Origin: a virus
Length of the DNA stretch: 31,721 nt
Reading direction: 5' to 3' (one strand)
Virus record (IMG/VR): IMGVR_UViG_3300027659_000133
Location: 1 to 31,721 of that record
Shown: positions 5,236 to 31,721 of the stretch, in pieces
Layout: each line of letters opens with the position of its first letter
How positions within the stretch are numbered: the stretch's first letter is position 1
Program-made: the position numbers and the translations under genes
The notes under the pieces: generated by a model
Told to the model about the DNA's origin: nothing
The model's database searches: none
Seen by the model: the letters and a program-made list of their open reading frames with translations, nothing else

Positions 5236-7239
5236 TTAACCTTCGCATGCCTTACATTCATCGTCTATGACGTTATTTTCCACGGAAGCTTTTGATAGTC
5301 TCTTGTTGAGTTCCACAAATCCGCCAATGTATTCCCCATCAAGATAGATCTGTGGGAGAGAACGGACACCTGCTCTTCCAGTAATTTCAGCCGCTGATTT
5401 GCCTGTTGTAGTGATGTCAATGTAGTCGTAGTCGATTCCTCTTGAATTAAGGAGAGATTTGGCCATTGTGCACTGTGGACAGTTTGGTTTTCCATAGATA
5501 ATAGTTTCCTTAATTTCTTTTAATTTATTCTCTTCAACTTTTTGTGAAACATTTTCAGCACGAACTTTAGCCTCTGTACGTAAATAGTATAATCCTTTTA
5601 GTCCAGATTCCCAAGCATTAATATGAGCATCCTTTACAGCAGATTTATCAGCACCTGCAGGGAAGAACAAGTTAACTGATTGACCTTGACAAATATATTT
5701 TTGTCTATCAGCCGCATGTTTAATAATCCAATTTTGATCTAATTCAAAACTAGTTTTAAACACAGATTTAACATCATTATCTAAAAACGGTAAATGTTGT
5801 ATAGAACCACCATGTGTAATAATGTTTGACCACACTTCACTTGTGTTGTAACCAATAGTTTCTAAATACTCTTCAAGATATTTATTTTTAACTAAGAAGG
5901 ACCCTGCACGAGTACGATGCGTATATGCATTAGCTTTATTAGGTTCAATACTTGGGGAAGTACTTAATAAGATACCTGAAGAAGCATTAGGGGCTACTGC
6001 TAACAAGTGTGAATGCCTAATTTTCTTTGGAGCCATGTCAGGTGCTCCGCCACGATCAATTGCAAGCATTTCGGATGCAGATACTGCTCTTGATTTAATT
6101 GTGTTAAACATTTGTTCATTTATTGATGAAGCAAAATCGCTCTCAAAAGGGATATTTATTGATTGTAAATAGTTATGGAAACCCATAGCACCTAAACCAA
6201 TAGATCTTTCTTTTGAAGCACTGTATTTTGCTCTAGCAAGACTATCAGGGGCATTCTCAATAAAGTATTGTAACACGTTATCTAACATAACTACTAAGTC
6301 AGCAATCATGTTAGTATCTTTCCATTGATCAAAATACTCTAGATTGACTGAGCTTAAACAGCACACAGCAGTACGATCTTCTGATGTAGGTAAATGGATC
6401 TCATTACAAAGATTACTACCATGAATCTTAAGACCTTTATCTTTTAACTCTTGAGGTAAGGCATCATTAGCTGTATCAATAAAGTTAAGATAAGGCTCAC
6501 CTGTGCGAAAGCGAGTTTCCAATAACTTGCTAAATACTTTTCTAGCATCGAGAAACTCCCCTGTTGGTCCTTTCTTTGGATCAACCAATTCATATGTAGT
6601 GCCTGTTTTAACAGCCTCCATGAAATTGTCAGTGATATTAACAGCGTTATGGAGGTTAAGACATTTACGATTGTTATCACCTGTGGGTACTCGAATGCTA
6701 ATAAATTCGAAAATATCAGGATGATCAATATTGAGATATGCAGCATAAGAACCTTTGCGTGTTTTACCTTGCCGATAAGCAGTCATATCAGCATCAATAG
6801 TACTCAGGAAAGGTATAGGCCCAGGAGCAACGTCAGATACACTACGGATGTCAGACCAATGACCTCCAACCCCGCCACCCATGACGGATAACCAACGAAT
6901 TTCAGAACTATGATCAATAAGACCAGCGACAGTATCAGGAACATAAGTTAAAAAGCAAGAGATTGGCATTCCTTTACCTTTACCATTAATATCGGGAGCA
7001 TTCGATAATACTGGTGAAGCAAACATAAACCATTTGTTAGAGATATAATTATACAAACGTTGAGCAAGCTCTAAGTTAGTTTTTCCGTTAAATGTGCTCC
7101 AAGCACGACAGGCTCTAGCATAAACCTGTTGAGGAGAAATTTCATCTCCCTGAGCATAAAACTCTAATACCATATCAAAAGCATAATCTGTTAAAAGTTT
7201 ATCTTTTTCTAAATCAATTTCAATGTCGTAATATTTCAT
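5236..7239 (-). CDS. nrdA: Class I ribonucleotide reductase, large subunit, with built-in glutaredoxin domain
   Basis: This 667-residue catalytic subunit has the active-site set N276-L-C278-N-E280, the redox pair C95 (PISC) and C293/C294 (CCLSS), and the radical-relay tyrosines Y551-Y552 in GLYYLRT. Between the end of the catalytic barrel and the C-terminal redox tail (C662-x2-C665) lies a glutaredoxin domain at about 579-648, with CPQC at 587-590, cis-Pro at 629 in SLPQIYL and a GG at 639-640. The N terminus begins almost at the core and is too short for the roughly 95-residue ATP cone of E. coli NrdA, so overall dATP inhibition is probably lost. The fused glutaredoxin would reduce the C-terminal cysteines in cis. 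The gene is directly followed by nrdB. Confidence 0.93.
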   Translation of the reverse strand: MKYYDIEIDLEKDKLLTDYAFDMVLEFYAQGDEISPQQVYARACRAWSTFNGKTNLELAQRLYNYISNKWFMFASPVLSNAPDINGKGKGMPISCFLTYVPDTVAGLIDHSSEIRWLSVMGGGVGGHWSDIRSVSDVAPGPIPFLSTIDADMTAYRQGKTRKGSYAAYLNIDHPDIFEFISIRVPTGDNNRKCLNLHNAVNITDNFMEAVKTGTTYELVDPKKGPTGEFLDARKVFSKLLETRFRTGEPYLNFIDTANDALPQELKDKGLKIHGSNLCNEIHLPTSEDRTAVCCLSSVNLEYFDQWKDTNMIADLVVMLDNVLQYFIENAPDSLARAKYSASKERSIGLGAMGFHNYLQSINIPFESDFASSINEQMFNTIKSRAVSASEMLAIDRGGAPDMAPKKIRHSHLLAVAPNASSGILLSTSPSIEPNKANAYTHRTRAGSFLVKNKYLEEYLETIGYNTSEVWSNIITHGGSIQHLPFLDNDVKSVFKTSFELDQNWIIKHAADRQKYICQGQSVNLFFPAGADKSAVKDAHINAWESGLKGLYYLRTEAKVRAENVSQKVEENKLKEIKETIIYGKPNCPQCTMAKSLLNSRGIDYDYIDITTTGKSAAEITGRAGVRSLPQIYLDGEYIGGFVELNKRLSKASVENNVIDDECKACEG

Positions 7240-9086: not shown

Positions 9087-9263
9087 TTATTTATTTATTA
9101 CGTTATTAGCTGCAAAACAAGCGGTTGAGATAAAGCTAAAGGCTACTGAGACTAACAAAAAGTCTGCTGAACTCCATTGCTCTACCCCTGTTAGCAAATT
9201 AACAGCTTGTGCTGATACTATAAGCATTGAACAAAAACCAAATAGAAAACCAATTAATTTCAT
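9087..9263 (-). CDS. Small membrane protein, two predicted transmembrane segments
   Basis: This 58-residue protein has hydrophobic segments at about 3-19 (LIGFLFGFCSMLIVSAQAV) and 34-54, joined by a short polar loop (TGVEQWSSAD). The ATG overlaps the upstream stop as TAATG, and the stop lies 2 nt before the primase start. It is not a signal peptide followed by a mature protein, since the second segment is just as hydrophobic. Holin-like size and topology are noted, but the location in the replication block argues against a simple holin call. Function unknown. Confidence 0.6.
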   Translation of the reverse strand: MKLIGFLFGFCSMLIVSAQAVNLLTGVEQWSSADFLLVSVAFSFISTACFAANNVINK

Positions 9264-9709
9264 TATTTTAATCCTGCTAATTTATTTAATCTCTTACGAT
9301 GTCTAACAGATACTTCTTCAGATGATCTCCATTGAACTTTATCAATAAAACGATTGTACCAAATATGGTTGTTAGTTGGGACTTCTACAAAACATTGAGA
9401 CCATGTTTCAGCCCAACTTAAACCGCCTCTAGTGTAATACTGATCTAATACATAAAATTCAAAAGAATCTTTTCCATTCTCTTCGATTAGGGCATTAATA
9501 TCTTTAGATGAGCTAGTATAGGTTCTCCAATTACTTGGCTTACCTCTGTTTATTTTACCTGTACCTCTAAAGATTTTCTTACCAATATACATCATACCAT
9601 TCTTAGTATCCTTGATTAAATAAACAAAACCAAAAGCGTTATTATAATCTAGTTGTTCAGTAAAGTTCCAATGTCCATTGTCTTTATTCTTTGATTTGGA
9701 AGTGGTCAT
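9263..9709 (-). CDS. GIY-YIG-like endonuclease
   Basis: This 148-residue protein contains FGFVYLIKDTKNGMMYIGKK at residues 26-45. This is the GIY-YIG core in the degenerate form (V-Y-L then Y-I-G) used by phage Seg-like and related nucleases. A Trp-rich segment with a Glu (about 110-117) and an Asn in YNRFI near the end supply plausible metal and active-site residues. The family cuts branched or double-stranded DNA. No T7 endonuclease I homologue appears in the window, so this protein could fill the junction-resolving role, but it could also be a homing-type nuclease. It overlaps the exonuclease gene by 26 nt, which suggests an integrated part of the module and not a recent insertion. Confidence 0.7.
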   Translation of the reverse strand: MTTSKSKNKDNGHWNFTEQLDYNNAFGFVYLIKDTKNGMMYIGKKIFRGTGKINRGKPSNWRTYTSSSKDINALIEENGKDSFEFYVLDQYYTRGGLSWAETWSQCFVEVPTNNHIWYNRFIDKVQWRSSEEVSVRHRKRLNKLAGLK

Positions 9710-10382: not shown

Positions 10383-10567
10383 ACTGGGTAAGTTACTTTC
10401 TCATAACCATACTTCTTAACACGAGCAAGAAGTTTTTGACCTACTTTGTTACGTACTTTGTATTTAATAATAGTAGGACGATCTACAAAGCTGAGATATA
10501 GATATTTATCTCCACGAGGATAGGTGTATGTTGCGGATGGCACTTGATATACTAATGCTTTTTTCAT
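10379..10567 (-). CDS. Hypothetical small basic protein
   Basis: This 62-residue protein is rich in Lys, Tyr and Val, probably a small beta sheet with a C-terminal helix (KVGQKLLARVKKYGYEK). Both ends overlap neighbours by 4 nt. The family is not recognised. The basic character would allow nucleic-acid binding, but this is only an inference from composition. Confidence 0.6.
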   Translation of the reverse strand: MKKALVYQVPSATYTYPRGDKYLYLSFVDRPTIIKYKVRNKVGQKLLARVKKYGYEKVTYPV

Positions 10568-10980
10568 TTTTGTTGAACTCTTATGTTACTATGAATTAAT
10601 GTTAAAATACCTGAATCTGTTTTATACGGGTCTGAGAAGACAACCCTCTCAATACCCGATTGAATTAGTAATAAGGAACAATTGTCACAAGGAGCAGTTG
10701 TTACATATACTGTTGAACCACGTAAGCTTAAACCTTCTGCAGCTGCTTTAGATACTAAATTAGCTTCAGCATGAATTACATACGATAGTGTTTTATTCTG
10801 ATCGTTCTCGCATTTATTAGGAAAACCTTTAGGTGTTCCATTAAAGCCAAAACTAAGAATATTGTTGTTCTTTACTGCAATTGCACCTACTTTACGCTTC
10901 TCAGCATGTGACATTAGAGCAATCCTCTTTGCAAGATCTAGATAGAGGGAATCGTAGCGATCTTCTTTTGTAGCCACCAA
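10564..10980 (-). CDS. dCMP/cytidine-type deaminase
   Basis: This 138-residue zinc deaminase has HAEAN at residues 70-74 (zinc His and catalytic Glu) and APCDNC with Cys at 98 and 101, the hallmark of the dCMP deaminase family. FGFNGTPKGFPN in front is also typical. It converts dCMP to dUMP, feeding dTMP synthesis. No thymidylate synthase is visible in the window. The start is non-ATG, TTG at 10980 or the adjacent GTG, because the first ATG (10914) would remove the first helix conserved in the family. AGGG lies upstream. It overlaps the previous gene by 43 nt. Confidence 0.88.
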   Translation of the reverse strand: MVATKEDRYDSLYLDLAKRIALMSHAEKRKVGAIAVKNNNILSFGFNGTPKGFPNKCENDQNKTLSYVIHAEANLVSKAAAEGLSLRGSTVYVTTAPCDNCSLLLIQSGIERVVFSDPYKTDSGILTLIHSNIRVQQK

Positions 10981-14950: not shown

Positions 14951-15141
14951 TATTTTTCTTCCCAAAGGCTTGCATGATAAACCTTAACTTTTAATTTTGG
15001 ATAGTGAGCTTTAACATCTTTTACTTTAACCTCTACTTGTCTCAAACTAGTAAAAACACATTCCTGAGTTGCTTTGCTAATAGGGATATTATGTTCTATA
15101 GCAGGGTCATCAGGGTCTACATAAGTAATAAAGAAAGGCAT
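14950..15141 (-). CDS. Hypothetical small protein
   Basis: This 63-residue protein has an N-terminal beta strand (MPFFITYVDPDDP) and a Lys/Val-rich C-terminal half. No motif is recognised. It shares TAATG-type junctions with both neighbours, so it is probably translated in a coupled chain. Confidence 0.55.
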   Translation of the reverse strand: MPFFITYVDPDDPAIEHNIPISKATQECVFTSLRQVEVKVKDVKAHYPKLKVKVYHASLWEEK

Positions 15142-15557
15142 TAATCAATATACTCCGTAATAATTGTGTCGCATGCCTTATCTACTGTTGATCTCCACTC
15201 TGTAACTAAAGATTCAAAGAATGGGTGTATCGTATCAGCAGAAGCTTTAAATGCAACTACTGGTTTACGTAGTACATAAGCAGCATAAAACACTTCCATA
15301 GAAGTACCGTGTTTAGCAATAGCTGGATTATTTAAGTTAACAAGAATCAAGTCTGACTCTTGGATATCACGAAGATCTAATTCAAAAATTCTCTTCATGT
15401 ACTTAGCTTGAAAGTCATGAACCCTACGAGTAGGATCAAGAACTTTCTGATCTGCTTGTTGAAGTAGTTCAGTAGCAATATTACGCCAACCTTTTGCATC
15501 TTCAATAGAGACATGCTCCATTGGCCCTGCTAAATATATTGTTCTTTGTTTAGTCAT
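15141..15557 (-). CDS. Nucleoside 2-deoxyribosyltransferase-like protein
   Basis: This 138-residue protein has the Rossmann-like layout of the family: IYLAGPM at 7-13, W24R in the first helix, VLDPTRR at 39-45, a DLRDIQESDLILVN strand at 61-74, GTSMEVFYA with the probable catalytic Glu at 88, and RKPVVAF at 98-103. Enzymes of this type move deoxyribose between bases or hydrolyse (deoxy)nucleoside monophosphates. In a phage this would help salvage or rebalance dNTP precursors. It overlaps the following and preceding genes by 1-4 nt. Confidence 0.75.
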   Translation of the reverse strand: MTKQRTIYLAGPMEHVSIEDAKGWRNIATELLQQADQKVLDPTRRVHDFQAKYMKRIFELDLRDIQESDLILVNLNNPAIAKHGTSMEVFYAAYVLRKPVVAFKASADTIHPFFESLVTEWRSTVDKACDTIITEYID

Positions 15558-20880: not shown

Positions 20881-20910
20881 AAAAAAGGCCACCCTTTTTA
20901 CGGGGTGACC
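20881..20910 (-). terminator. Rho-independent terminator at the end of the tail gene region
   Basis: An 8-bp stem GGTCACCC/GGGTGGCC with an AT-rich loop is followed on the minus strand by TTTTTTATC. It lies 23 nt after the stop of the last tail gene. The single wobble is G-U only in minus-strand RNA, which confirms its direction. It separates late from early-type genes. Confidence 0.85.
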
Positions 20911-20932: not shown

Positions 20933-23047
20933 TTACCACAATATTAAAACAGAGCCATTATAACCTGCTCCGCCAGACCAGTTGTTTCTTGCTGCACCTG
21001 CAGTAGAAGGTACTCCATAAGTAGTTGCATTACCACCATTAAGTGTATGCTGATTTGGAGCTGCATAAGCTGTTAAAATAGGGTTAGCGTCTGATAAATA
21101 ACCAAAAGCTGCTCCACTACCACCACCTCCACCACCTGCATAAAATCCACTACCACCACCACCAAATCCACCGCCTGCACTAGAAGAACCGTGACCCCCG
21201 CCACCGCCGCCAGCTAGACTTATGCCGTTAAACATAAAACCATTTCCGCCTACGGATTGACCTACACTGTATTGACCTCCCAAACCTGGTCCCGAATTAT
21301 TGTAAGTAGGAGAGCCTCCATAGTTAGCAGATCCACGTCCACCACCAATTGATGAGTTTGGATTTTCTCCAGCAGATGCGGATGCACCTTTTTCTCCACC
21401 ACCGCCACCACCAGCTCCACGACCACCACCAGCTCCAGCAACATAGCTTCCGCCGTATCCTTCATTAGCAACACCACCACCATTTGCGTTACCAGTAACA
21501 GCAATTGCAGGACTATTACTAATCATGTCACCACCATGACCGTTTAGCTTTCCGCCTTGAGTAGTAATTCCCGTAAAATAGCTAGCAGTACCACCAGCAA
21601 TTCCATAGCCATTTATGCCAGCAATTGTAGTTACAGCAGCATTTCCTCCACTACCACCGTTGCCTTCTCCACCAGTACCACCAGCACCGGCACTACCGCC
21701 TCCGCCAGCTATAACAAAACCTTTTTGGAATAGCGTTGATTCGGAAGACACTAAAGTGCCAGAACTATTAGCGGCATAAAAAATACCACTACCAGCACCG
21801 CCAGATCCATTATCATTTCCGTCTTGGGCACATCCTCCGCCTAAACCAGTACCACCACTACCGCCAGAATTATTAAAAGCAGTTGCAGCATTTGCAACAA
21901 TTACTTTGAAATATTCAAGTGGTTGCACTCGTAAGATAGCACTGCTAAAACCGCCTCCGCCGCCTGTATTACCGTTATTCCATACACCGCCACCACCCCA
22001 AACAAGAACACGTATTGCATAAACATTTGCAGGAATTCTGAACGTAGAATTTGCGTGATTTAAATCAGTTAAATTAGTTAAAGAACCGGTCCAACCAGTA
22101 TTATATACTGCATAATTAGAGCCACTCAATGGGTAAGCCCCTATTGTTGGAACGGTAGGCCTTGTGATAATACTAAAGCTACGTGAAACGCTTTGATTGC
22201 CAGCATTATCTGTTGCTATGGCTGAAAAGTTATAAGTTGTTTGAGCCGTAACATTTGCGGTAAGCCCTGTTATTACTCCAGTAGATGAATTGATTGAAGT
22301 ATTTGCAGGAAGACCTGTTGCAGCATATGTGATTGTTGCTCCACTATCTGGGTCAGATGCAAGCAACGTTGCATTAATGCTTGTATCATCAGCATTATCC
22401 CAAACAGCACCAGAAGCAGTTGTCCAAGTTGGAGTACTTCCACAATCAATTGAAGCTATAGCAGTATAAGTAGTTCCAGTAGGATTAATCACTTTAACAC
22501 TTAAAGGTTCTTCGGCAATTGAAAAATCTCTTGGAGTTACTGCAGTTATTTGTGCTGTATTAAGATACGTTACTGTTGATGCAGTGTACTCTACGTTTGT
22601 GTTAGTTAAAAACTTAACAATTATTCCTGGTTGAAAGTTTGCTCCATTAATAGTAAAAACAGTACCTTGTTCTCCACTAAAAGTTACTGGAGTAATTGAG
22701 CTAATTGCTGGAGGAACAGATAACTCTGTCCATCCATAGGCAGTTGAATATGTTTCAAAGCTTCCATTTGTAGTGTTATGTCTTGTCATACCATTAACAG
22801 GACTTGCTGGGCGTTGTGCTGTAGTTCCTGAAGGTATTTGGAAATATCCTGTAGAACTATTTGCCGTATCACTTACTGCGGTAGCTGTTGGAGGGGTAAC
22901 AGTACCCCACGATGGACTTGTACCATCTGTTGTTAAAAATTTACCTGAGTTACTTGTTTGAGTTGGTAACCCGCCAGCAGTGGGTAATAGTTTTCCTGAG
23001 GAGTCTATATCATCCGCTAGCTTAGATAGGTTTCTTGAAAAGCCCAT
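20933..23047 (-). CDS. Tail fibre/adhesin with IPT and Ig-like domains and glycine-rich C-terminal half
   Basis: This 704-residue protein has an N-terminal GKFLTTDGTSPSW linker, a GTTAQRPASPVNG tail motif near 74-86 and an IPT/TIG-type Ig domain (about 112-200, beginning AISSITPVTFSGEQGTV). A putative cadherin/He_PIG-type domain follows (about 210-295, with DPDSGATITYAATGLPANTSI). The last 340 residues are a long GGGG-rich region. It differs from the seven paralogues upstream: it lacks the VEYLVVAGGGG entry and the SGIVIIRYP exit, and ends in GSVLILW. Ig-like domains in phage tails bind cell-surface sugars weakly, and glycine-rich bundles can form the tip. It is the last gene before the terminator. 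Confidence 0.78.
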   Translation of the reverse strand: MGFSRNLSKLADDIDSSGKLLPTAGGLPTQTSNSGKFLTTDGTSPSWGTVTPPTATAVSDTANSSTGYFQIPSGTTAQRPASPVNGMTRHNTTNGSFETYSTAYGWTELSVPPAISSITPVTFSGEQGTVFTINGANFQPGIIVKFLTNTNVEYTASTVTYLNTAQITAVTPRDFSIAEEPLSVKVINPTGTTYTAIASIDCGSTPTWTTASGAVWDNADDTSINATLLASDPDSGATITYAATGLPANTSINSSTGVITGLTANVTAQTTYNFSAIATDNAGNQSVSRSFSIITRPTVPTIGAYPLSGSNYAVYNTGWTGSLTNLTDLNHANSTFRIPANVYAIRVLVWGGGGVWNNGNTGGGGGFSSAILRVQPLEYFKVIVANAATAFNNSGGSGGTGLGGGCAQDGNDNGSGGAGSGIFYAANSSGTLVSSESTLFQKGFVIAGGGGSAGAGGTGGEGNGGSGGNAAVTTIAGINGYGIAGGTASYFTGITTQGGKLNGHGGDMISNSPAIAVTGNANGGGVANEGYGGSYVAGAGGGRGAGGGGGGEKGASASAGENPNSSIGGGRGSANYGGSPTYNNSGPGLGGQYSVGQSVGGNGFMFNGISLAGGGGGGHGSSSAGGGFGGGGSGFYAGGGGGGSGAAFGYLSDANPILTAYAAPNQHTLNGGNATTYGVPSTAGAARNNWSGGAGYNGSVLILW

Positions 23048-23056
23048 ATTCGTTCC

Positions 23057-23947
23057 TTAAAATGTTATAGACCCTGAGGAAGTCCACTTGTAAATCCTGA
23101 AGCCGCCTGTTGTAGATATTGTTGGGGAGCCTGTTGTTGATGTGGCTAAGTTGAATGTGTCAGGGTATCGGATGATTACGATACCGCTACCGCCAGAACC
23201 ACCATTTGCATAAGTGGATCCAAATCCACCGCCTCCACCGCCGCCGCCTGTGTTTGCTGTGCCTGCTGTGCCTGTGGTGTTGTTGTTAGTGCCACTGCCG
23301 CCGCCGCCTACACCACCTGTTCCTGCTGTTTGACCTTGCGAACCACCGCCACCGCCTCCAGCGTAAGTAGTTACTGTTCCGCTAATTGAACTAGCTATTC
23401 CAGCGCCGCCATTACCCGAAGTTGTACCACCAACGCCACTAAGACCAACAGTACCAGCACCGCCTCCACCGCCTGATGGATAACCTGTGCCTGAAATTGA
23501 TCCAAAACCACCAGCATTACCTTGTCCTGATATGCCTGAACCCGGTAGGCCACCTGCTGTGCCTGATGAAGCCACACCGCCACCAGAACCACCAGCCACA
23601 CCTGACCCACCAGCACTAGGAGCACTTGAGTTCGAACCAGCACCGCCGCCGCCAGATGCAGTAAAGTTACCAAATACGCTATTTGAACCCGAAAAAGCGG
23701 CATCCTGTGGAGATACTGAACCGCCACCCCCGGCACCTACGGTTACAGTAATTGCGGAGCCTGTAGCTACACCTGAAAATCCCGCAAGTAAACCACCTGC
23801 ACCGCCGCCTCCACCAGTCTTACCACCACCACCACCCCCTGCCACAACTAAATACTCGACATTCTGTGGAGGAATTCCAGTCCAATTATTATCTTTGATA
23901 GCTTGGCTTGCCTGACTTAACGTCCAAATGCCTGAGTATTGTGGCAT
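23057..23947 (-). CDS. Glycine-rich tail adhesin paralogue, class A N terminus
   Basis: This 296-residue protein begins with the class A start (IWTLSQASQAIKDNNW) and enters the glycine domain at VEYLVVAGGGGGG. It runs through repeated GGGGAG blocks separated by short variable loops, and closes with SGIVIIRYPDTF, TTGSPTIST and YKWTSSGSITF. The pattern matches the glycine-rich phage domain whose blocks can fold as polyglycine-II helices, as in the S16 gp38 tip adhesin. The loops would face the receptor. The stop TAA lies inside the TAAGGA ribosome binding site of the next gene. Confidence 0.78.
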   Translation of the reverse strand: MPQYSGIWTLSQASQAIKDNNWTGIPPQNVEYLVVAGGGGGGKTGGGGGAGGLLAGFSGVATGSAITVTVGAGGGGSVSPQDAAFSGSNSVFGNFTASGGGGAGSNSSAPSAGGSGVAGGSGGGVASSGTAGGLPGSGISGQGNAGGFGSISGTGYPSGGGGGAGTVGLSGVGGTTSGNGGAGIASSISGTVTTYAGGGGGGSQGQTAGTGGVGGGGSGTNNNTTGTAGTANTGGGGGGGGFGSTYANGGSGGSGIVIIRYPDTFNLATSTTGSPTISTTGGFRIYKWTSSGSITF

Positions 23948-23948
23948 A

Positions 23949-24311
23949 TTAAGCTCCTGTAGGTGGTGTTACTTCAACCCATGCTGTTGTTGGTTCATCC
24001 CATGTGTACATCTTGCCGTCTGTAGGCATTGCAACAGGTGCAGACCACAGGCAAGTGTCTTCACTAAGTGTCCATGATGGAAATGGCTTAGGAGGAATGA
24101 ATGCATCTCGTTGTGCATCATAACTATAACCAATACCTGCATAGTTCTTACGTAGTGGAGTACCACCATTAGAGTGTACACCACCATGTGTATTATAGGA
24201 TGTTTGAATCCATTGACCTGGGCTTGTATCCACGAATGTTGTAAAAAATTCTGGTTCAGCAACGATTACTTGTGTTACTTTACCATCTGTTACTTTTGCA
24301 AAATGTGCCAT
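23949..24311 (-). CDS. Conserved tail-associated small protein (MAHFAK family)
   Basis: This 120-residue protein is read from ATG 24311, which has AAGGAA at good distance. The 14-codon longer form overlaps the previous gene. MAHFAKVTDGKVTQVIVAE, WIQTSYNTHGGVH, LRKNYAGIGYSYD and DAFIPPKPFPSWTL are blocks I recall from proteins in many aquatic phages, usually near tail fibre genes. It is a compact soluble protein without known activity. Its place between two adhesin paralogues suggests a structural or assembly role. Confidence 0.75.
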   Translation of the reverse strand: MAHFAKVTDGKVTQVIVAEPEFFTTFVDTSPGQWIQTSYNTHGGVHSNGGTPLRKNYAGIGYSYDAQRDAFIPPKPFPSWTLSEDTCLWSAPVAMPTDGKMYTWDEPTTAWVEVTPPTGA

Positions 24312-24322
24312 ATCTAATTTCC

Positions 24323-25195
24323 TTAAAATGTTACTGAACCACTTGAGGTCCAAATATATATCTGATAACCGTTTGCATAACGGATTTGTGGGTTGCCTGT
24401 TGTTGCGGTTGGTGCTGATAATGATTGTGGGTAACGAATTATTACAATGCCAGAGCCTCCATTACCACCATAAGCAAGAGGATACCCACCTCCGCCTCCG
24501 CCTCCGCCAGTATTTGACAATCCAGAATTACCGCTAGGTCCAACTCCATTAATTATAGTTGCACCATTACCACCACCAGCAGTTCCTAAACCACCAATAC
24601 CAGTAGCAGTAGTACTATCTCCGCCAGAACCACCACCACCGCCTGCATAAAAAACACTCTGACCTGTAATAGTTGAGCAAATGCCTGTTCCACCTCTACC
24701 ACCTGAAAAACTATCTGAAACTGTGCCAGCAGGAAGGCCAACAGATCCTGCTCCGCCTCCACCACCTCCGCCACTGAAAGAGCCACCGCTATAACCGCCC
24801 CCTGCATTGCCTTGGCCAGAAGTTGCAGCACCACCAGTAGTACCTTGACGACCTGCTCCACCTCCAGAGCCTCCTGCACCAGGAGTACCTAATGCACCTA
24901 AACCACCGCCATCAGAGATAATAGAGGAAAAAACAGAATTTGAGCCATTAGCCCCGCCATAACCACTATCAGAAAAACCACCGACTCCGCCAGCACCAAT
25001 AGTAATTGTGTAAGAAGTTCCAGTTGTAACTGCAAATCCTGCAGCAGATCTAAAACCACCTGCTCCACCGCCTCCGGCACCATTTCTAGCAGCTCCACCA
25101 CCCCCACCAGCAATTACAAGATATTCAACTGTAGATGGTGAACCACTTAAAGGATTATATGTGGCAGATAAAATACCACCTAATAAACTACTCAT
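24323..25195 (-). CDS. Glycine-rich tail adhesin paralogue, class B N terminus
   Basis: This 290-residue protein begins with the short class B start (GGILSATYNPLSGSPSTVEYLVIAGGG), like the copy at 26758-27660 and unlike classes A and C. The glycine domain follows the family plan: a SYTITIGAGG strand, NGSNSVFSSI, many GGGG blocks, FYAGGGGG, NTGGGGGGGG and SGIVIIRYPQ. It ends TTGNPQIRYANGYQIYIWTSSGSVTF. The variable loops differ from all siblings. Confidence 0.78.
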   Translation of the reverse strand: MSSLLGGILSATYNPLSGSPSTVEYLVIAGGGGGAARNGAGGGGAGGFRSAAGFAVTTGTSYTITIGAGGVGGFSDSGYGGANGSNSVFSSIISDGGGLGALGTPGAGGSGGGAGRQGTTGGAATSGQGNAGGGYSGGSFSGGGGGGGAGSVGLPAGTVSDSFSGGRGGTGICSTITGQSVFYAGGGGGSGGDSTTATGIGGLGTAGGGNGATIINGVGPSGNSGLSNTGGGGGGGGYPLAYGGNGGSGIVIIRYPQSLSAPTATTGNPQIRYANGYQIYIWTSSGSVTF

Positions 25196-25206
25196 GTTTG
25201 TTTCCT

Positions 25207-26748
25207 TTAAAAAGTGATTGAACCACTAGATGTAAATGTGTATACACGGTTTTTATAACCTAAACCTGTAGCAAATGGTGATGATTGATTCCATGTAGGC
25301 GTACCGACTAATACAGGCGCAAAATTATTAGTTGAAAAATCTAAATAGCCATTTGGTGATATCGCACTAACCAATACTTGTGTTCCAATAATAGGTGTTA
25401 ATGGTGTTGTTGGTGTTGTAAAGTTAGCAGTATAAACAGCTGTTCCTGTAACGTATCTAAAATTAGATATATACCCATCAAAATAAGATGAATTAGCATT
25501 ACCGGGGCGACCTATTGCTATTGGAGCACTTGCGCCAACTGAGCCAGAGATAGCAGTGGTTCCAGCCGACACCCCATTGACATACAAAGTCAGCGTAGTA
25601 GTGGTTCTAACAAGAGCAACGTGATACCAAGTGTTGAGACTTATTGTTGATGCTGAGTTAATTAAATAAGTGACCCCACCATCAATTCGCCCATAAATTT
25701 GATTACTAGCATTTGCGCCAATAGCAAATGACCTAACAGTTAAACCTGAATTATTTGCTCCTGCAAATACCTGAGTGCCAGATGACGTTTTATAAAACCA
25801 TAGCTCAATAGTAAAATCGTTTGAGCCTAAAGTAAAAGCAGAATTAGCAGCAAATTGAACTGCTTGGCTTGATGCGCCTACAAAACTCAAACTACCCGAC
25901 CCACTTGTACTTACAGTTGGTGAACCTGTTGTAGATGCTGGTACTGCAAATGTATCTGGGTATGAAAGAATAACAATACCAGAACCACCAGCACCGCCAA
26001 TACCATCACCAACAGCGCCATTGTACCCAGCTCCACCTCCACCTCCACCTGTGTTAATAAATCCTGCTGTAGCAGTTCCACCGTATTTTCCAAGGCCACC
26101 TCCGCCAATTCCACCCAACCCTTGAGTGTTCGTAGAAGCACCTCCTCCACCACCCGCATAAGATGTAACAGCGCCAGAAATAGCGGACGCAATACCTGCA
26201 CCTCCATTACCACCAACAGCGCCAGTGCCATTTGAAAACCCATTAAATCCAACAGTTCCTGCTCCACCACCACCGCCAGAAGCATCTGAGGTTGTTTGCG
26301 TTAAAGTCCCACCACCGCCATTATTACCTTGATTAAAAGTATTACTTCCACCCCGAGTAGCTGGACCAGAAAGTGAATAATTTCCATTTCCTCCACCAGA
26401 GCCACCAGAATTAACTATACCAAAACGACCCCCACCACCTCCGCCAGTAGAAGATATAGAACCAAAAACAGAATTTTGACCATTTGTTCCTACACCGTTT
26501 GATACCGCAGCGCCACCTGCACCAACAGTTACTGTGTAAGAAGCACCAGTAGTAACAGGCACAATACCTGTTAACAATCCACCAGCACCACCTCCTCCGC
26601 CAAAAGAGTTGCCATTTGCCTGAGAACCACCAGCACCACCACCTGCAACAACAAAGTATTCAACCCATTTAGGTGTTGCATAATTTGACCAACCGCTTTG
26701 TTGAACAGCTTGGTTAACTTGTTTAAGTGTAAATAATCCACTTGCCAT
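25207..26748 (-). CDS. Glycine-rich tail adhesin paralogue with inserted LamG-like domain, class A N terminus
   Basis: This 513-residue protein has a class A start (GLFTLKQVNQAVQQSGW) and an ordinary glycine domain to about residue 283 (SGIVILSYPDTF, TTGSPTVSTSG). It then has about 200 extra residues with a LamG/concanavalin-like pattern: FTLGSNDFTIELWFYK, YHVALVRTTTTLTLYVNGVSAGT, IAIGR, FDGYISNFRYVTGTAVY. The common C-terminal strand (YTFTSSGSITF) resumes after it. The extra domain sits exactly between TTGSPTVST and the last strand, as if inserted as a unit. LamG folds bind glycans, so this copy may add a sugar-binding head. Confidence 0.8.
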   Translation of the reverse strand: MASGLFTLKQVNQAVQQSGWSNYATPKWVEYFVVAGGGAGGSQANGNSFGGGGGAGGLLTGIVPVTTGASYTVTVGAGGAAVSNGVGTNGQNSVFGSISSTGGGGGGRFGIVNSGGSGGGNGNYSLSGPATRGGSNTFNQGNNGGGGTLTQTTSDASGGGGGAGTVGFNGFSNGTGAVGGNGGAGIASAISGAVTSYAGGGGGASTNTQGLGGIGGGGLGKYGGTATAGFINTGGGGGGAGYNGAVGDGIGGAGGSGIVILSYPDTFAVPASTTGSPTVSTSGSGSLSFVGASSQAVQFAANSAFTLGSNDFTIELWFYKTSSGTQVFAGANNSGLTVRSFAIGANASNQIYGRIDGGVTYLINSASTISLNTWYHVALVRTTTTLTLYVNGVSAGTTAISGSVGASAPIAIGRPGNANSSYFDGYISNFRYVTGTAVYTANFTTPTTPLTPIIGTQVLVSAISPNGYLDFSTNNFAPVLVGTPTWNQSSPFATGLGYKNRVYTFTSSGSITF

Positions 26749-26757
26749 ATCTACTCC

Positions 26758-27660
26758 TTAAAATGTTATTGTGCCAGAGGCAATGAATTTGTATACACGC
26801 CAGAAGCCTGATATGTATGTCTCTGGAGAACCTGTTGTTGATGTAGCAGGTGCGTAGTAGGATGGATAGCGTAGGATTACGATGCCAGAGCCGCCAACTC
26901 CACCAAAAGCGGTAGCAGATGGAAAACTGCCACCACCACCACCACCGCCTGTATTAGCAAGTCCATTAGAGCCACTATTTGTGCCAGTTCCACCAAAAGT
27001 AGCACCATTATTTGTGCCACCAGCACCGCCGCCAGCACCGCCGCCAATGTTTGCTCTTCCTGAACTATTAACGGAAGAACCACCACCACCACCTGCCAAT
27101 TGAAGTGGTGAACCAGTAATGCTTGTTGTTATTCCTGCACCGCCTTGTCCTGCAAGTGGAGGAGTACCTGTAGATGCTTGACCAACAGAACCTGCGCCGC
27201 CTCCACCCGCACTAACCCATGTACCTCCTGCTGTTGCATTAGATACTGAATTTCCACCAGCATTCCCTTGACCGGCTGTGCCCGCTGCTCCAGAAGTAGT
27301 CCCAGAGTCTGGCGCTCCCGCCCCTCCACCAGAACCAAAAGTCCCTGTTGGTGCGCTAGCATAATTACCGCCGCCGCCGCCACCATAAGCGGTTATGGAG
27401 CCAAAAACAGAACTTCCACCGGCTCCTCCAGCAGAATTTGAAGTAACCGATCCGCCAGCACCAACAGTTACAGTAATTGCAGAACCAGCAGTAACAGCAT
27501 ATCCAGTAGCAGACAAAACTCCGCCAGCACCTCCACCACCACCAACATAAGAACCACCACCACCACCGCCAGCCACGACAAGGTATTCCACCGTTGATGG
27601 TGCTGTTTTAATTCCATCTACACTTGCAGACAATACATTACCTGTATATCTTAGAGACAT
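26758..27660 (-). CDS. Glycine-rich tail adhesin paralogue, class B N terminus
   Basis: This 300-residue protein has a class B start (YTGNVLSASVDGIKTAPSTVEYLVVAGGG). It has the shared strands AITVTVGAGG, SSVFGSITAYGGGGGG, GQGNAGGN, ITTSITGSP, SGIVILRYPSYY and TTGSPETYISG, ending YKFIASGTITF. Glycine blocks include GGGGGAGGV and GGAGGGAGG. AAAGGAGG upstream of the ATG is one of the best ribosome binding sites in the region, so expression may be higher than that of its siblings. It heads the first B-A pair. Confidence 0.78.
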   Translation of the reverse strand: MSLRYTGNVLSASVDGIKTAPSTVEYLVVAGGGGGGSYVGGGGGAGGVLSATGYAVTAGSAITVTVGAGGSVTSNSAGGAGGSSVFGSITAYGGGGGGNYASAPTGTFGSGGGAGAPDSGTTSGAAGTAGQGNAGGNSVSNATAGGTWVSAGGGGAGSVGQASTGTPPLAGQGGAGITTSITGSPLQLAGGGGGSSVNSSGRANIGGGAGGGAGGTNNGATFGGTGTNSGSNGLANTGGGGGGGSFPSATAFGGVGGSGIVILRYPSYYAPATSTTGSPETYISGFWRVYKFIASGTITF

Positions 27661-27672
27661 ATTGTGCCTCCT

Positions 27673-28050
27673 TTATGGTGATGTAATAGTTTCGTAGCTA
27701 GCAACAAGTTCAATAGCGTTTGTAGTGCCTGAAGTTACTACTACAGACTGTGCTTCACCCACGTAGAATGATGTTGTCTTATCTGTAATAATAAGAGAAG
27801 CATTAGGGGGAATACTAATTTGATATGCAATACGATATGCTGTACCACCACCTGCAGTAGCTGTGTTAACTGATACTGTAATATTAGCAGCAGATGCTGT
27901 TACATTAGACGCAACAATAGAACCTACTTTGTTTACTGAACCAGCTGCTGGAGTAAGGGCTGTCCAAGCAGTAGCTGAAGTAGCCGTAGGTACGAGATAA
28001 GACGTAGCACCATAAATAGCGCTTACGTTAACAATATTTGGATTAGCCAT
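27673..28050 (-). CDS. Small tail/virion-associated protein
   Basis: This 125-residue beta-rich protein (MANPNIVNVSAIYGATSYLV, GSVNKVGSIVASNVT, ANITVSVNTA, YRIAYQISIPPNASLIITDK) is rich in Ala, Thr, Ser and Val with no charged helix. Proteins of this type next to tail fibres in aquatic phages are, from memory, usually annotated as virion or decoration proteins. The sequence itself shows only a beta-sandwich-like pattern. TTTTAAGGAG of the junction contains the stop of the upstream gene. Confidence 0.62.
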   Translation of the reverse strand: MANPNIVNVSAIYGATSYLVPTATSATAWTALTPAAGSVNKVGSIVASNVTASAANITVSVNTATAGGGTAYRIAYQISIPPNASLIITDKTTSFYVGEAQSVVVTSGTTNAIELVASYETITSP

Positions 28051-28059
28051 GCTTACTCC

Positions 28060-28329
28060 TTAAAATCCGAAAATGAGAGACATGGCGATTGCCTTGCCAG
28101 TTGATGCGTATGCAGGTGTTACCCAAGTAGGAACACTTGTACCGTTTGATTGTAATAGTTGTCCAGATGTACCTGCAGAGGTAAATCCAGTTGTACTAGC
28201 AGCACTCTGCCAAGGAATAGTTCCTGCAGTTCCGCCTGTTAAGCTAGCGATAGAACCCAAGAGAGAGTCACCGTTTTGTAACTCTTGAATCTGGGTTCCA
28301 TTAATTGTTAGAGAATATTTGGTTGCCAT
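28060..28329 (-). CDS. Small tail fibre-like protein
   Basis: This 89-residue protein has MATKYSLTINGTQIQEL at the start, a GQLLQSNGTSVPTW linker like the fibre repeats in neighbouring genes, and the C terminus GKAIAMSLIFGF, which I recall from small fibre proteins of marine phages. It probably forms a trimeric tip or connector. Function inferred from motif and context only. Confidence 0.6.
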   Translation of the reverse strand: MATKYSLTINGTQIQELQNGDSLLGSIASLTGGTAGTIPWQSAASTTGFTSAGTSGQLLQSNGTSVPTWVTPAYASTGKAIAMSLIFGF

Positions 28330-28338
28330 TTAAAATCC

Positions 28339-28869
28339 TTATGAGGTAATAGATACATTTACTGTACCGCCAGCGTTTGTTGTTACTGGTAGATAGCCCT
28401 GTGCAACAGATACCGATGCTGTTGAACCATTGTTTAATGTTACAGGCATATTATTCAATACAGTAAGTGTAGCCCAAGATGCTGTTGATCCATCTGTCTT
28501 TAAATACTTGTTAGCATTGCTTGCTTGAGATGGGAGAGCATCTACAGTTTCCCATGAATTTGTAGTACCATTTGTTTTGAGAAATTTACCTGCATTTCCA
28601 GATGGGTTTGGAACTCCATCATACAGGTTAACAGTATAAGTTGTGAATCGTAATTCATCATTCAGTACTGCGGCTGAGTTGAGAACAACAGACAAACCAT
28701 CTGATGCAGTATAGTCTGTTGCTAATAGTGTGATACCATTTAGTGTAACATCGATGTAACCTACAGCATAGCCTCCATTAGGATAGAATGTAGTCTGTCC
28801 AGATGTAGCGATTACTTCGGTCACAGTTCTAGCTGTTCTACCAAATGGTGGAATACCTAAGTATGACAT
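28339..28869 (-). CDS. Tail fibre-like protein with GKFLKTNGT linkers
   Basis: This 176-residue protein has an N-terminal beta domain (TYFYPNGGY-like TTFYPNGGYAVGYIDVTLNG) followed by two copies of the GKFLKTNGTTNSW / NKYLKTDGSTASW linker and a beta-rich end. These linkers recur in the 20933-23047 product and in many phage fibres. It lacks the glycine domain. It may be a fibre shaft or a carrier to which adhesins attach. Confidence 0.68.
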   Translation of the reverse strand: MSYLGIPPFGRTARTVTEVIATSGQTTFYPNGGYAVGYIDVTLNGITLLATDYTASDGLSVVLNSAAVLNDELRFTTYTVNLYDGVPNPSGNAGKFLKTNGTTNSWETVDALPSQASNANKYLKTDGSTASWATLTVLNNMPVTLNNGSTASVSVAQGYLPVTTNAGGTVNVSITS

Positions 28870-28888
28870 GTTTTATTTTCCTTTTTTG

Positions 28889-29896
28889 TTAGGCTATGTA
28901 TGTACCTGATGAAGTGAATGTGTGGATAGTGTAGCCATTATTAGAAGAAACTACACCACCTGTTCCTTTTTGAGTACCAAGGTATCTAATAATTACAACG
29001 CCAGAACCACCAGCACCTCCTAGACTAGCAGGATTTCTTTCAGAACCACCACCACCACCACCTGTGTTAGTTGATCCTGCAACTCCTTGTCCTTGGGAGC
29101 CGTTTCCCCCACCTCCTGATCCACCAACACCAAATTGTGTTGATGTTGCATAAGCAGAGCCTCCACCACCACCAGCTCGGAAAGTAGCAGTACCATTAAT
29201 AGAGGATTGAACACCTACACCACCATCACCACCTTTAGAGGTTGTACCAACTTGCCCAATAGCTCCAGCACCACCGCCACCACCAGCACCGTAAACTCCT
29301 GAATTTCCACTACTAGCAAGACCACCAGCAAAACCTTGTCCAGCAGTACCTGTGCCAGCAGTGCCAATACTAGCAGAATAAGTTCCACCACCACCACCTG
29401 AACCACCATTTTTTGCATTTTCAGCAGGTGGGTTATTTCCTCCTGAACCAGCGCCTCCACCCCCAACTGAAGTTATAGCATTAAATGAAGAATCATTTCC
29501 AGAAAAACCTGTGCTATCAGTAGAAAAAGAAGGACCGCCTGCTCCACCAGCTCCAACAATTACTGTATAAGAAGATTGGCTAGTAATTAATATAGTAGAT
29601 TCAGCAGAAGCTCCCCCACCAGAAGGCGCACCAACAACGGAAGATCTATAACCTCCAGCTCCTCCACCTCCACCATGATAATCTCCACCACCACCTCCAC
29701 CACCTGCAACTATTAAGTATTCAATAGAATAAGAAGTTGGAACTGAAAAACTTAACCAACCAGTACTACCGTACCATTCAGGATTTCCAGTAGTTGTATT
29801 ATAACCCATTTGACCAACACTAGGATTCAATGGGCGTTCAGCCGTGGTCCAAGATGCGGGTGTTGTACCCTTTGTACCATCTAAAATAATTGCCAT
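28889..29896 (-). CDS. Glycine-rich tail adhesin paralogue, class C N terminus
   Basis: This 335-residue protein has a class C start with TTAERPLNPSVGQMGYNTTTGNPEW, the GTTAQRP-type phage tail motif, then IEYLIVAGGGGGGG. The glycine domain carries the usual strands (SYTVIVGAGGAGG, SFNAITSVGGGG, GQGFAGG, FRAGGGGG, SGVVIIRYLGTQ), and the ending YTIHTFTSSGTYIA differs from the class A/B ending. The N-terminal module probably docks on the fibre, the rest forms the tip. Confidence 0.78.
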   Translation of the reverse strand: MAIILDGTKGTTPASWTTAERPLNPSVGQMGYNTTTGNPEWYGSTGWLSFSVPTSYSIEYLIVAGGGGGGGDYHGGGGGAGGYRSSVVGAPSGGGASAESTILITSQSSYTVIVGAGGAGGPSFSTDSTGFSGNDSSFNAITSVGGGGAGSGGNNPPAENAKNGGSGGGGGTYSASIGTAGTGTAGQGFAGGLASSGNSGVYGAGGGGGAGAIGQVGTTSKGGDGGVGVQSSINGTATFRAGGGGGSAYATSTQFGVGGSGGGGNGSQGQGVAGSTNTGGGGGGSERNPASLGGAGGSGVVIIRYLGTQKGTGGVVSSNNGYTIHTFTSSGTYIA

Positions 29897-29905
29897 GTTG
29901 TTTCC

Positions 29906-31003
29906 TTATGCTGTAAATGTACCTGAAGATGTGAATGTATGTGTAGTATATGCACCACTTACTAGAACAGTACCGCCAGTAGCTCGTTGGGCACCAAGGT
30001 ATCTGATTATCACAATTCCAGAACCCCCATTTCCACCAACACCACCAACACCACTACTTCCATTAGCACCGCCTGCACCGCCACCGCCACCTGTGTAAGC
30101 TGTCCCAGATGTTCCATTATTAACGCCAGAGCCGCCAGCTCCGCCACCACCTAAACCGCCTGTTGCAGGGGTTGGTGCACCATACTGGTTACACCCAGCT
30201 CCGCCTCCTCCTGCATAATACACAGAAGTTCCTGATAATGACGAAGTAAGGCCTATACCTCCCGATCCATTTGTTGCTCCAGAAGCGTCTCCGCCTGCTG
30301 CACCAGCTCCACCGCCACCACCGCCTGCATACGGACTAGTTGTACCACCACCACCACGGTTACCTTGACCACTAGTTCCAGCACCTCCAGCACCTGGAAG
30401 AGGAGATCCACCACCAGCACCGCCACCACCAGAACCACCAGAACTACCTGCATTACCATCTTGTGCTCGTCCTGCACCACCTGCAATTGCTGTAGCAAAA
30501 GTTGAGAATTGCGAATTATTTCCATTTACACCATTTCGGTTATTAGATGCACCGCTGTTAACTCCACCATTTCCACCAGCTCCAACAATTACAGAATAAG
30601 AAATTCCCGCAGATAAATTGCTTGTTGTGCCAGTAAGAAATCCTCCAGCACCGCCTCCACCAGAAGAACCGTCACCACTCTGTCCTCCTGCTCCACCGCC
30701 ACCGCCAGCAACCACAAGATAGTCGACTGGGTATGCTAGTTGATCAGAAAAGTTTGTCCACCCAATACCATCAAACCATTCAGGATTATTAGTAGTAGTA
30801 TTAAATCTAGCTGTTCCAGTAGAAGGATTAGAAGGTCTTTGTGCAGTAGTTCCCCGAGGAAAAGAAATACCTCCGGTATTGTTAGCTAAAGTAACTAAGC
30901 CAGTACTAGCCTGTAACTCAAGTATTCCCGTACTATCTGCTGTGCTTTTAAGTCCTGCAGAACCGGACACAACACCGTTATCGGCATTAATTATTGTTGT
31001 CAT
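29906..31003 (-). CDS. Glycine-rich tail adhesin paralogue, class C N terminus with extra leader
   Basis: This 365-residue protein begins MTTIINADNGVVSGSAGLKS, a common phage fibre leader, then RGTTAQRPSNPSTGTARFNTTT (about 50-72), then VDYLVVAGGGGGAGG. The glycine domain follows the class C plan and ends SGIVIIRYLGAQRATGG, YTTHTFTSSGTFTA. Of the complete copies with the family signature, it has the longest N-terminal segment. The start has AAGGAC upstream, overlapping the stop of the next-upstream gene. Confidence 0.8.
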   Translation of the reverse strand: MTTIINADNGVVSGSAGLKSTADSTGILELQASTGLVTLANNTGGISFPRGTTAQRPSNPSTGTARFNTTTNNPEWFDGIGWTNFSDQLAYPVDYLVVAGGGGGAGGQSGDGSSGGGGAGGFLTGTTSNLSAGISYSVIVGAGGNGGVNSGASNNRNGVNGNNSQFSTFATAIAGGAGRAQDGNAGSSGGSGGGGAGGGSPLPGAGGAGTSGQGNRGGGGTTSPYAGGGGGGAGAAGGDASGATNGSGGIGLTSSLSGTSVYYAGGGGAGCNQYGAPTPATGGLGGGGAGGSGVNNGTSGTAYTGGGGGAGGANGSSGVGGVGGNGGSGIVIIRYLGAQRATGGTVLVSGAYTTHTFTSSGTFTA

Positions 31004-31012
31004 GTTATGTCC

Positions 31013-31721
31013 TTAAGATAATGCAAATGTGCCAGATGAATTAAATGTGTGAATAGTGTAGCCACCTATTGATGTTATTACACCACCAGATCCTCTTTGT
31101 GCACCAGCATATTTAATAATTACAACACCTGACCCACCATTTCCACCACCTCCACCGCTTTGACTGTTGTAGTTTGAGCCACCACCTCCACCACCTGTGT
31201 TTGCAGATCCTGCATTTCCTCTAGGGTTAGAAGTACTATTATTTCCAGTATTGGAACCTGCCCCACCACCGCCTAATCCCCCCGCACCTTGTGGTGGAAC
31301 AGTGTTTGCTGAATCTTGTAAATTACCGCCACCACCTCCGGCATAGTATGTTGCTGTCCCATTAATTGAATATTGTAATCCAATGCCACCGTTACCGCCT
31401 TGGCTATTACTTCCACCACCACCAACAGCACCTGCACCGCCTCCACCACCACCTGGATACTCACCGCCTGATACGTTTGGAAATCCTCCAGCAAAACCTT
31501 GACCTGTTGTCCCTGACCCCGCTAATGCTCCGGTTCTACCTCCACCGCCACCTGAACCACCTGATAATCCATTTGTGTTGTTTCCACCTGAACCCCCACC
31601 ACCACCACCAAGCGCAATATAATTTGCTGTAAATGAAGAATTAACTCCATTACTTCCAGCACCTGAAACAGCAGTGTACGGATTTGAAGCGCCAGCACCT
31701 CCAGCACCAACAACAACGGAA
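31013..31721 (-). CDS. Glycine-rich tail adhesin paralogue, C-terminal part (cut by window edge)
   Basis: The last 236 codons are present and the N terminus lies to the right of the window. The frame shows SVVVGAGGAGASNPY, many GGGGG blocks, YYAGGGGG, NTGGGGGGS, SGVVIIKYAGAQRGSGG, and the class C ending YTIHTFNSSGTFALS before TAA. The reading frame was followed by hand from the right edge to the stop. It is the first adhesin copy in transcription order within the window. Confidence 0.72.
   Translation of the reverse strand, partial: SVVVGAGGAGASNPYTAVSGAGSNGVNSSFTANYIALGGGGGGSGGNNTNGLSGGSGGGGGRTGALAGSGTTGQGFAGGFPNVSGGEYPGGGGGGAGAVGGGGSNSQGGNGGIGLQYSINGTATYYAGGGGGNLQDSANTVPPQGAGGLGGGGAGSNTGNNSTSNPRGNAGSANTGGGGGGSNYNSQSGGGGGNGGSGVVIIKYAGAQRGSGGVITSIGGYTIHTFNSSGTFALS

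Follow-up and report, generated by a model that had tools for sequence, protein, structure and literature searches.

Putative polyglycine II-type adhesins in a conserved, slot-specific cassette in the tail region of a phage genome

Introduction

Glycine-rich polyproline II (PPII) bundles have been described in Bxb1 gp33, in the Pam3 fibre (Protein Data Bank (PDB) code: 7YFW), in S16 gp38 and in ALK (PMC13243192). Here, we describe a bank of eight glycine-rich, adhesin-like genes that occupies positions 20933–31721 of the virus record IMGVR_UViG_3300027659_000133. The whole of this 31,721-base record (hereafter, the window) was analysed; it is fragmentary and ends inside the first copy of the bank.

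In the T-even phages S16, T2 and PP01, the gp38 adhesins form a polyglycine II (PGII) sandwich in which hypervariable loops between the glycine motifs set the host range (PMC12892980), a layout that the bank resembles. However, gp38 is a single adhesin encoded after gp37, whereas here there is a bank, with no Pfam match to GP38 and no gp37 found. The fibre of the cyanophage Pam3, gp24, which is paired with the chaperone gp25 (7YFW and 7YPX; PMC9608196), has a four-layer glycine lattice and a variable distal tip. It shares with the bank a glycine-rich distal domain, a conserved stem and a variable tip, and the chaperone gene associated with the fibre has a candidate counterpart here in P134 (see below); yet the Pam3 fibre is a single protein that starts with a long helix, and here there are four or more slot-specific proteins without such a helix. 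The brush and wing proteins of the Bxb1 tail tip (9D93; PMC13243192 and PMC13243795) likewise place PPII-bundle domains at the tail tip of a siphophage, but they have no sequence match to the bank, the host is mycobacterial, and no four-slot operon is described in either paper. The glycine-rich adhesins of haloarchaeal hafunaviruses (PMC8651126) also consist of a glycine-rich tail-end protein with a small neighbouring gene and a link to host range, although there is only one per virus and the hosts are archaea. Lastly, the metaviromic islands or host recognition clusters of marine phages (PMC3909814 and PMC7029224) are swapped between close phages, much as the whole locus is replaced in sister phages here. 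We found no mention of the cassette reported below in either of these papers ('glycine' is absent from PMC3909814), nor did a literature search of open-licence papers find a description of it.

Results

At the heart of the bank is a six-gene core, P125-G1-G2-G3-P134-G4, all on the minus strand, in which four glycine-rich adhesin-like genes (slots G1–G4) are accompanied by two small partner genes. In the window, P125 (27673–28050; 92% identical in the relative G007, see below) heads the cassette and is followed by G1 (26758–27660), G2 (25207–26748), G3 (24323–25195), P134 (23949–24311) and G4 (23057–23947). The four slot proteins match the Pfam family Gly_rich_2 (PF21722) with E-values of 4.7e-18, 2.8e-19, 4.9e-19 and 9.6e-21, respectively, and G2 has an additional Laminin_G_3 (lectin-like) domain (E 6.2e-22). 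Profiles from the window and G007 were run on fetched loci, and the order P125-G-G-G-P134-G, with all genes adjacent and each intergenic gap <700 nt, was found in 23 distinct contigs. These include contigs with podophage-type, UvsX-bearing and jumbo-phage neighbours: one of 335 kb carries UvsX and an ATP-dependent protease, and in several the cassette adjoins a member of the virion protein family phrog_3287, a comparable gene of phage DSL-LC04 being annotated as a stabilization protein. Because the neighbours are as different as the phrog_3287 family, UvsX and an ATP-dependent protease, the cassette, judged by gene content, occurs in quite different phage backbones; the same neighbours allow their morphotypes to be surmised. 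Searches of the viral collection with P125 and P134 found at least 560 and at least 598 related stretches, respectively.

The slots are distinguishable by their ends. Those of G1 read MSxRYxGGILSA..GINSPVTT and ..WRVYKFVASGTITF, those of G3 read ..GGFxSATFNPLSG and ..GYQIYTWTSSGSITF, and G4 has the recognizable end YSGMWTLSQVSQAVKNLNWTG. The nearest neighbour in another phage was the same slot for 88/90 N-terminal ends and 89/90 C-terminal ends, and also for 74/90 of the intervening glycine-rich middles (81/90 when only non-glycine positions were compared), with about 25% expected. The nearest neighbour lay in the same phage in 0–2 of 90 cases over the N end, middle and C end (1/90 for the glycine domain). 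An anchor profile trained on G1 matched only G1 (23/23) and G3 (15/23), and one trained on G4 matched only G4 (23/23) and G2 (19/23), shuffled controls giving 3 and 1 matches among 590. There are, therefore, two anchor types, A in G1 and G3 and B in G2 and G4, which alternate as A-B-A-B.

Simpler P125-G-P134 cassettes were found in 10 of 50 loci with room for one. Several of their anchors resemble type A followed by type B, but both halves reach at least 6 bits in only 5/26, so that a composite A+B anchor in these minimal cassettes has only partial support from the profiles. In DSL-LC04 (locus L359, 11517–13202), one 561-aa protein, possibly an unsplit form, contains two stretches of Gly_rich_2 and a tandem arrangement of the two anchor-like motifs. 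At the other extreme, the 113,678-base record IMGVR_UViG_3300027782_000046 (loci L114 and L128) has about a dozen or more glycine-rich open reading frames (ORFs), the largest bank found.

The association of the small partners with glycine-rich genes extends beyond the cassette. In loci found with P134, a glycine-rich ORF lies directly upstream of it in 58/70, compared with 7/476 for other ORFs of similar size, and P125 has such an ORF immediately downstream in 40/63 of the loci found with it and upstream in 0/71. Searches of named phages by tblastn with the glycine-rich proteins yielded little, probably because low-complexity masking hides the glycine tracts, and the small partner genes succeeded as queries: pairs of a glycine-rich gene with P134 are present in cultured phages, namely Roseobacter phage CRP-143, Methylophilales phage Melnitz (three pairs), Synechococcus phage Bellamy, zth2-2, phiPsal1 and MW202674, where they are annotated as hypothetical or left unannotated. 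Chance composition as the source of the bank signal can be ruled out on the basis of the slot-specific ends, the 7/476 adjacency background and the shuffled-anchor controls.

P134 itself belongs to phrog_7759 (E 3.4e-33), a PHROG family annotated without function. Translation probably begins with the ATG at 24311, which has a Shine–Dalgarno site; a longer ORF begins with TTG at 24353. The model of P134 (pLDDT 87.9) has a sole high-probability PDB match, the 162-aa Pam3 chain 7ypx_a, which has the length of gp25 (probability 0.99, others at most 0.08; E 0.17 over 78 aligned columns, TM-score 0.36). Our best guess is that P134 is a fibre chaperone. The function of P125 is not clear; a penton base-like assignment had a weak PDB match (E 0.015) and was not relied on.

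Within the cassette, it is the glycine-rich middles that vary. Between the window and G007, the non-synonymous divergence (dN) of the middles is 0.40, compared with 0.025–0.066 for the interleaved genes and 0.05–0.09 for RNA polymerase (RNAP), DNA polymerase (DNAP) and helicase; the slot N and C ends have lower dN than the middles, and the frames, glycine blocks and slot identity are retained. The synonymous divergence (dS) of the middles, inflated in part by uncertain alignment of the loops, is 1.29, compared with 0.19–0.45 for the interleaved genes, and with this reservation the two values together indicate domain replacement or very fast change and not amino-acid selection alone. At the DNA level, identity to G007 is mostly 83–100% at the interleaved genes and outer slot ends, and falls to about 45–70% in the middles. 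Similarly, in the close pair of loci L310 and L312 the non-glycine proteins are 94.5% identical and the glycine-rich proteins 53–61%. In another pair, 99% identical elsewhere, one glycine gene has been kept and the other replaced (L127 3112–4107 versus L131 3745–4641); this is a natural single-slot swap, the neighbouring glycine gene being 100% identical in its variable middle. For five copies, the window and G007 share exact DNA matches of 32–69 nt at the ends of positional orthologues, whereas no two copies in the window have an exact match longer than 22 nt in common. This speaks for exchange between phages, or rapid change from one phage to another, and against shuffling within a genome. 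As read from these comparisons, the glycine domains are undergoing rapid replacement or divergence between phages.

The glycine-rich proteins had been proposed to be PGII tip adhesins resembling gp38 of S16, and the predicted fold of G4 is in keeping with a protein of this general type. The AlphaFold model, a monomer from a 62-sequence alignment, has a pLDDT of 92.2 and a pTM of 0.89; its glycine region contains few strands. Among PDB structures, it is most similar to tail-tip chains of Bxb1 (E 9.5e-4, for 9d93_Qb with probability 1.00, and 1.2e-3), followed by the Pam3 fibre (7ypx_A; E 3.0e-3) and then by the glycine-rich domains of ALK and LTK (E 0.36 and above). These structures have been described as PPII bundles or glycine-rich lattices (PMC13243192 and PMC9608196). 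The sole PDB sequence match of the glycine profile is also the Pam3 fibre (7yfw; E 0.1). In a viral structure library, 143 models match G4 at E <0.001, and most of those listed are glycine-rich domain-containing proteins of uncultured phages. The modelling thus supports the view that the glycine-rich proteins are PGII/PPII-bundle tip adhesins.

Around the core, the bank is packed as a single minus-strand operon. Its eight members comprise seven Gly_rich_2 ORFs (E 2.6e-14 to 9.6e-21; 54–75 bits, the curated cut-off being 24.3 bits), which share 45–62% pairwise identity, and a diverged relative, as the initial annotation had recognized. They do not fill the 10.8 kb by themselves, as it had supposed: four non-glycine genes (P176, P89, P125 and P134), 1.5 kb in total, are interleaved with them. 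All intergenic gaps are 1–19 nt, and every bank gene whose start lies inside the window is preceded by a Shine–Dalgarno site (AAGGA, AGGAG or a close variant), which frequently overlaps the stop codon of the preceding gene. Promoter-like sites are not in excess in the region (23, compared with a shuffled mean of 27), and a terminator-like hairpin with an 8-pair stem (6 G-C) and a TTTTTT run (20887–20910, minus strand) directly follows the last bank gene; support for it is modest, with 20 terminator-like sites in the region and 10.2 expected. Of the framework strands that were thought to be fixed throughout, the first (VEYLVVAGGG, VDYLVVAGGG, IEYLIVAGGG or VEYFVVAGGG) and SGIVIIRY are indeed general, whereas TSSGSITF (with variants ASGTITF and TSSGSVTF) is restricted to the ends of the downstream members, the three upstream members ending in TSSGTFTA, TSSGTYIA or NSSGTFALS.

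These upstream members, also on the minus strand, are a glycine-rich adhesin-like ORF that lacks its 5' end and start codon at the contig boundary (31013–31720; PF21722 E 2.6e-14) and two adhesin-like genes with N-terminal adaptors of the TTAQRP type (29906–31003; E 7.4e-18) and the TTAERP type (28889–29896; E 6.1e-19). In G007, their positional counterparts are the first bank gene G31795, G32881, with which the initial 58 nt are identical, and G33985, which is alike at the N-terminus and different at the C-terminus. Between them and P125 lie P176 (28339–28869, minus strand), a small fibre-adaptor-like protein with a weak PHROG tail fibre match, and the small conserved protein P89 (28060–28329, minus strand), which are 92% and 94% identical in G007, respectively. 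The diverged last slot (20933–23047, minus strand) has no PF21722 match, TIG being the only family found in the Pfam scan (E 1.7e-5). It has a conserved N-terminal anchor, the first 48 aa being nearly identical to those of G43033 in the last slot of G007, and then an unrelated body with a different glycine-rich C-terminus; the body of G43033 comprises Ig and LamG domains.

A scan of viral contigs for the RNAP of the window found 31 loci, many of them 82–89% identical, which made comparison with close relatives feasible. The nearest, G007 (IMGVR_UViG_3300021963_000146; RNAP 87% identical), has a complete bank in identical order, consisting of seven glycine ORFs and one more. Upstream of it lie genes for portal, capsid and tape measure proteins, a J-like gene and two large genes of fibre-like type, whose products have no Pfam match. 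This bears out the assignment of the bank to a phage tail region. The interleaved proteins are 92–94% identical between the two phages, and those glycine-rich proteins that align over their full length are about 58–76% identical; in each gene, the N-terminal part and, as a rule, the C-terminal part are close to the positional orthologue, and the glycine domain is not. The bank is not common to all close relatives: the sisters G003, G004 and G009 (RNAP about 88% identical) have other fibre genes at the locus, with one glycine ORF each, and the locus has, therefore, been exchanged as a block. In G009, a Phage_tail_APC chaperone (PF16778; E 3.7e-14) comes after this ORF, which matches Gly_rich_2 (E 4.5e-6), so that a glycine adhesin is again encountered together with a chaperone. 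In addition, dS to G007 is lower for interleaved bank genes (27673–28869 and 23949–24311; 0.19–0.45) than for RNAP, DNAP and helicase (0.60–1.33), which suggests that movement of the bank between lineages is more recent than that of the backbone.

On a wider scale, the RNAP of the window is 50% identical to those of the roseophages DSS3_VP1 and DSS3_PM1 (Naomviridae). For DSS3_VP1, the corresponding values for DNAP and helicase are 39 and 35%, and ribonucleotide reductase and other proteins also match the DSS3 phages, more weakly than RNAP. By these identities, the phage is related to the Naomviridae and likely represents a separate genus or family. A scan of genome contigs returned four contigs of metagenome-assembled genomes, which were uninformative on the host.

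Elsewhere in the window, Pfam identifies a large subunit of ribonucleotide reductase whose C-terminal end carries a fused glutaredoxin domain (5236–7239). There are also a nucleoside 2-deoxyribosyltransferase (15141–15557; PF05014) and a dCMP-deaminase homologue (10564–10980). The related phage DSS3_VP1 has dU-DNA, and by analogy base modification is possible in the window phage. For a 117-aa ORF (1612–1965), the sole match is to the N-terminal (Nlig-Ia) domain of NAD-dependent DNA ligase (E 3.4e-30), and homologues of Clp protease (2926–3609) and of a SegE-like GIY-YIG endonuclease (9263–9709) are present.

Discussion

We consider it probable, at roughly 0.6, that the bank is a host-recognition operon from which several slot-specific PGII tip adhesins are co-expressed and jointly displayed on the tail, with P134 as their chaperone, the cassette having moved as a unit and the tips having been exchanged between phages. 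In such an operon, the conserved N-terminal anchor would set the place of each adhesin in the virion, the loops of a glycine-rich bundle of about 230 residues would form the receptor-contact surface, and a conserved β C-terminal cap would close the protein. P134 would help the adhesins to fold and assemble, in the role that gp25 has for the fibre of Pam3. The P125-G1-G2-G3-P134-G4 core would be inherited and transferred between phages as a unit, whereas its glycine domains would be replaced or diverge rapidly, the conserved ends and interleaved genes providing homology for exchange. The initial annotation had left open whether the copies are assembled together, expressed as alternatives or kept as a store of loops. 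Joint use is favoured because the slot order is fixed and the anchors are slot-specific across the 23 contigs, the operon is packed, with a Shine–Dalgarno site for each start, promoter-like sites are not above chance, and a terminator-like hairpin stands at its end.

Several observations weigh against this interpretation. The three upstream adhesin genes (31013–31720, 29906–31003 and 28889–29896) fall outside the four-slot core, and many phages have one glycine adhesin, so that four slots are not generally essential. The G4 model is of a monomer, from an alignment rich in paralogues; the Foldseek TM-scores of its three top matches are low (0.30–0.36), and S16 gp38 (6F45) is not among the 50 matches listed. 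The match of P134 to the Pam3 chain is weak in E-value, aligned length and TM-score; its model has C-terminal strands and no helices, so that the C-terminal helical trimerization domain of gp25 is absent, and no Pfam chaperone family was matched among the 40 members scanned. Finally, the uncertain loop alignment tempers the dS of the middles.

How the adhesins might be arranged admits more than one answer. Tentatively, the A-B-A-B anchors and the dedicated chaperone could denote a widespread, hitherto undescribed four-subunit heteromeric PGII tip, derived from a single two-anchor adhesin and traded among podophages, siphophages and large phages; the descent from a single adhesin is proposed because the minimal P125-G-P134 cassettes suggest both anchor halves together. 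A less likely alternative to our favoured reading is that the adhesins, all made at once, sit on separate fibres or baseplate positions and bind different receptors, giving a polyvalent phage. Slot-specific anchors would suit different docking sites, Melnitz has its three glycine–P134 pairs spread over the tail genes, and minimal cassettes manage with one adhesin; however, the genes of the four core slots invariably lie side by side, in one order and with their small partners, and the anchor alternation hints at partnership, neither of which excludes separate positions. It is improbable that the proteins have no part in receptor binding and are virion decoration or structural filler diverging fast under weak constraint. 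Low-complexity glycine-rich proteins can indeed drift, but the ends have a lower dN than the middles, with frames, glycine blocks and slot identity kept, the fold matches are to tip and fibre proteins and to ligand-binding glycine-rich domains, and the slot G2 protein carries a fused LamG domain, which is lectin-like.

The locus had been put forward as a candidate for an undescribed receptor-switching system, and in the sense of a switch within one genome we do not uphold this. Expression of one adhesin at a time, through inversion, a diversity-generating retroelement or phase variation, is conceivable from the many paralogous adhesins with variable loops, and adhesins under phase variation are known from other viruses (phiCh1, as cited in PMC8651126). 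Yet neither reverse transcriptase (RVT_1) nor serine invertase (Resolvase) was matched in the window or five relatives, six incomplete records in which tyrosine-type recombinases were not searched for. Moreover, the inverted repeats in the window are weak and do not flank genes, none being convincing as invertible; extra promoters were not found, promoter-like sites lying below the shuffled mean; and the genes are co-oriented and closely spaced, each with a ribosome site, in an order fixed across phages. We therefore regard switching as very unlikely. The probability is equally slight, or slighter still, that the extra copies are a reservoir donating loops to a main adhesin by gene conversion: framework strands common to the paralogues could supply homology, and the domains do differ clearly between close phages, but long shared DNA is lacking (the 22-nt maximum between copies), the glycine domains are nearest to the same slot elsewhere and only once in 90 to a paralogue in the same phage, and each copy has an intact frame and a ribosome site. 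Gene conversion between copies was accordingly rejected.

If the bank is indeed an operon of jointly displayed adhesins, proteins that at present pass as hypothetical would form a host-recognition kit common among uncultured aquatic phages, with a recognizable gene order, anchors particular to each position and a candidate chaperone. Tips, anchors and chaperones could then be named in many metagenomic phages, revealing the host-dependent part of their genomes, and simultaneous display of several PGII adhesins could be put to the test. Moreover, the P125 and P134 families, each with several hundred related stretches (at least 560 and at least 598), would be placed in virion biology.

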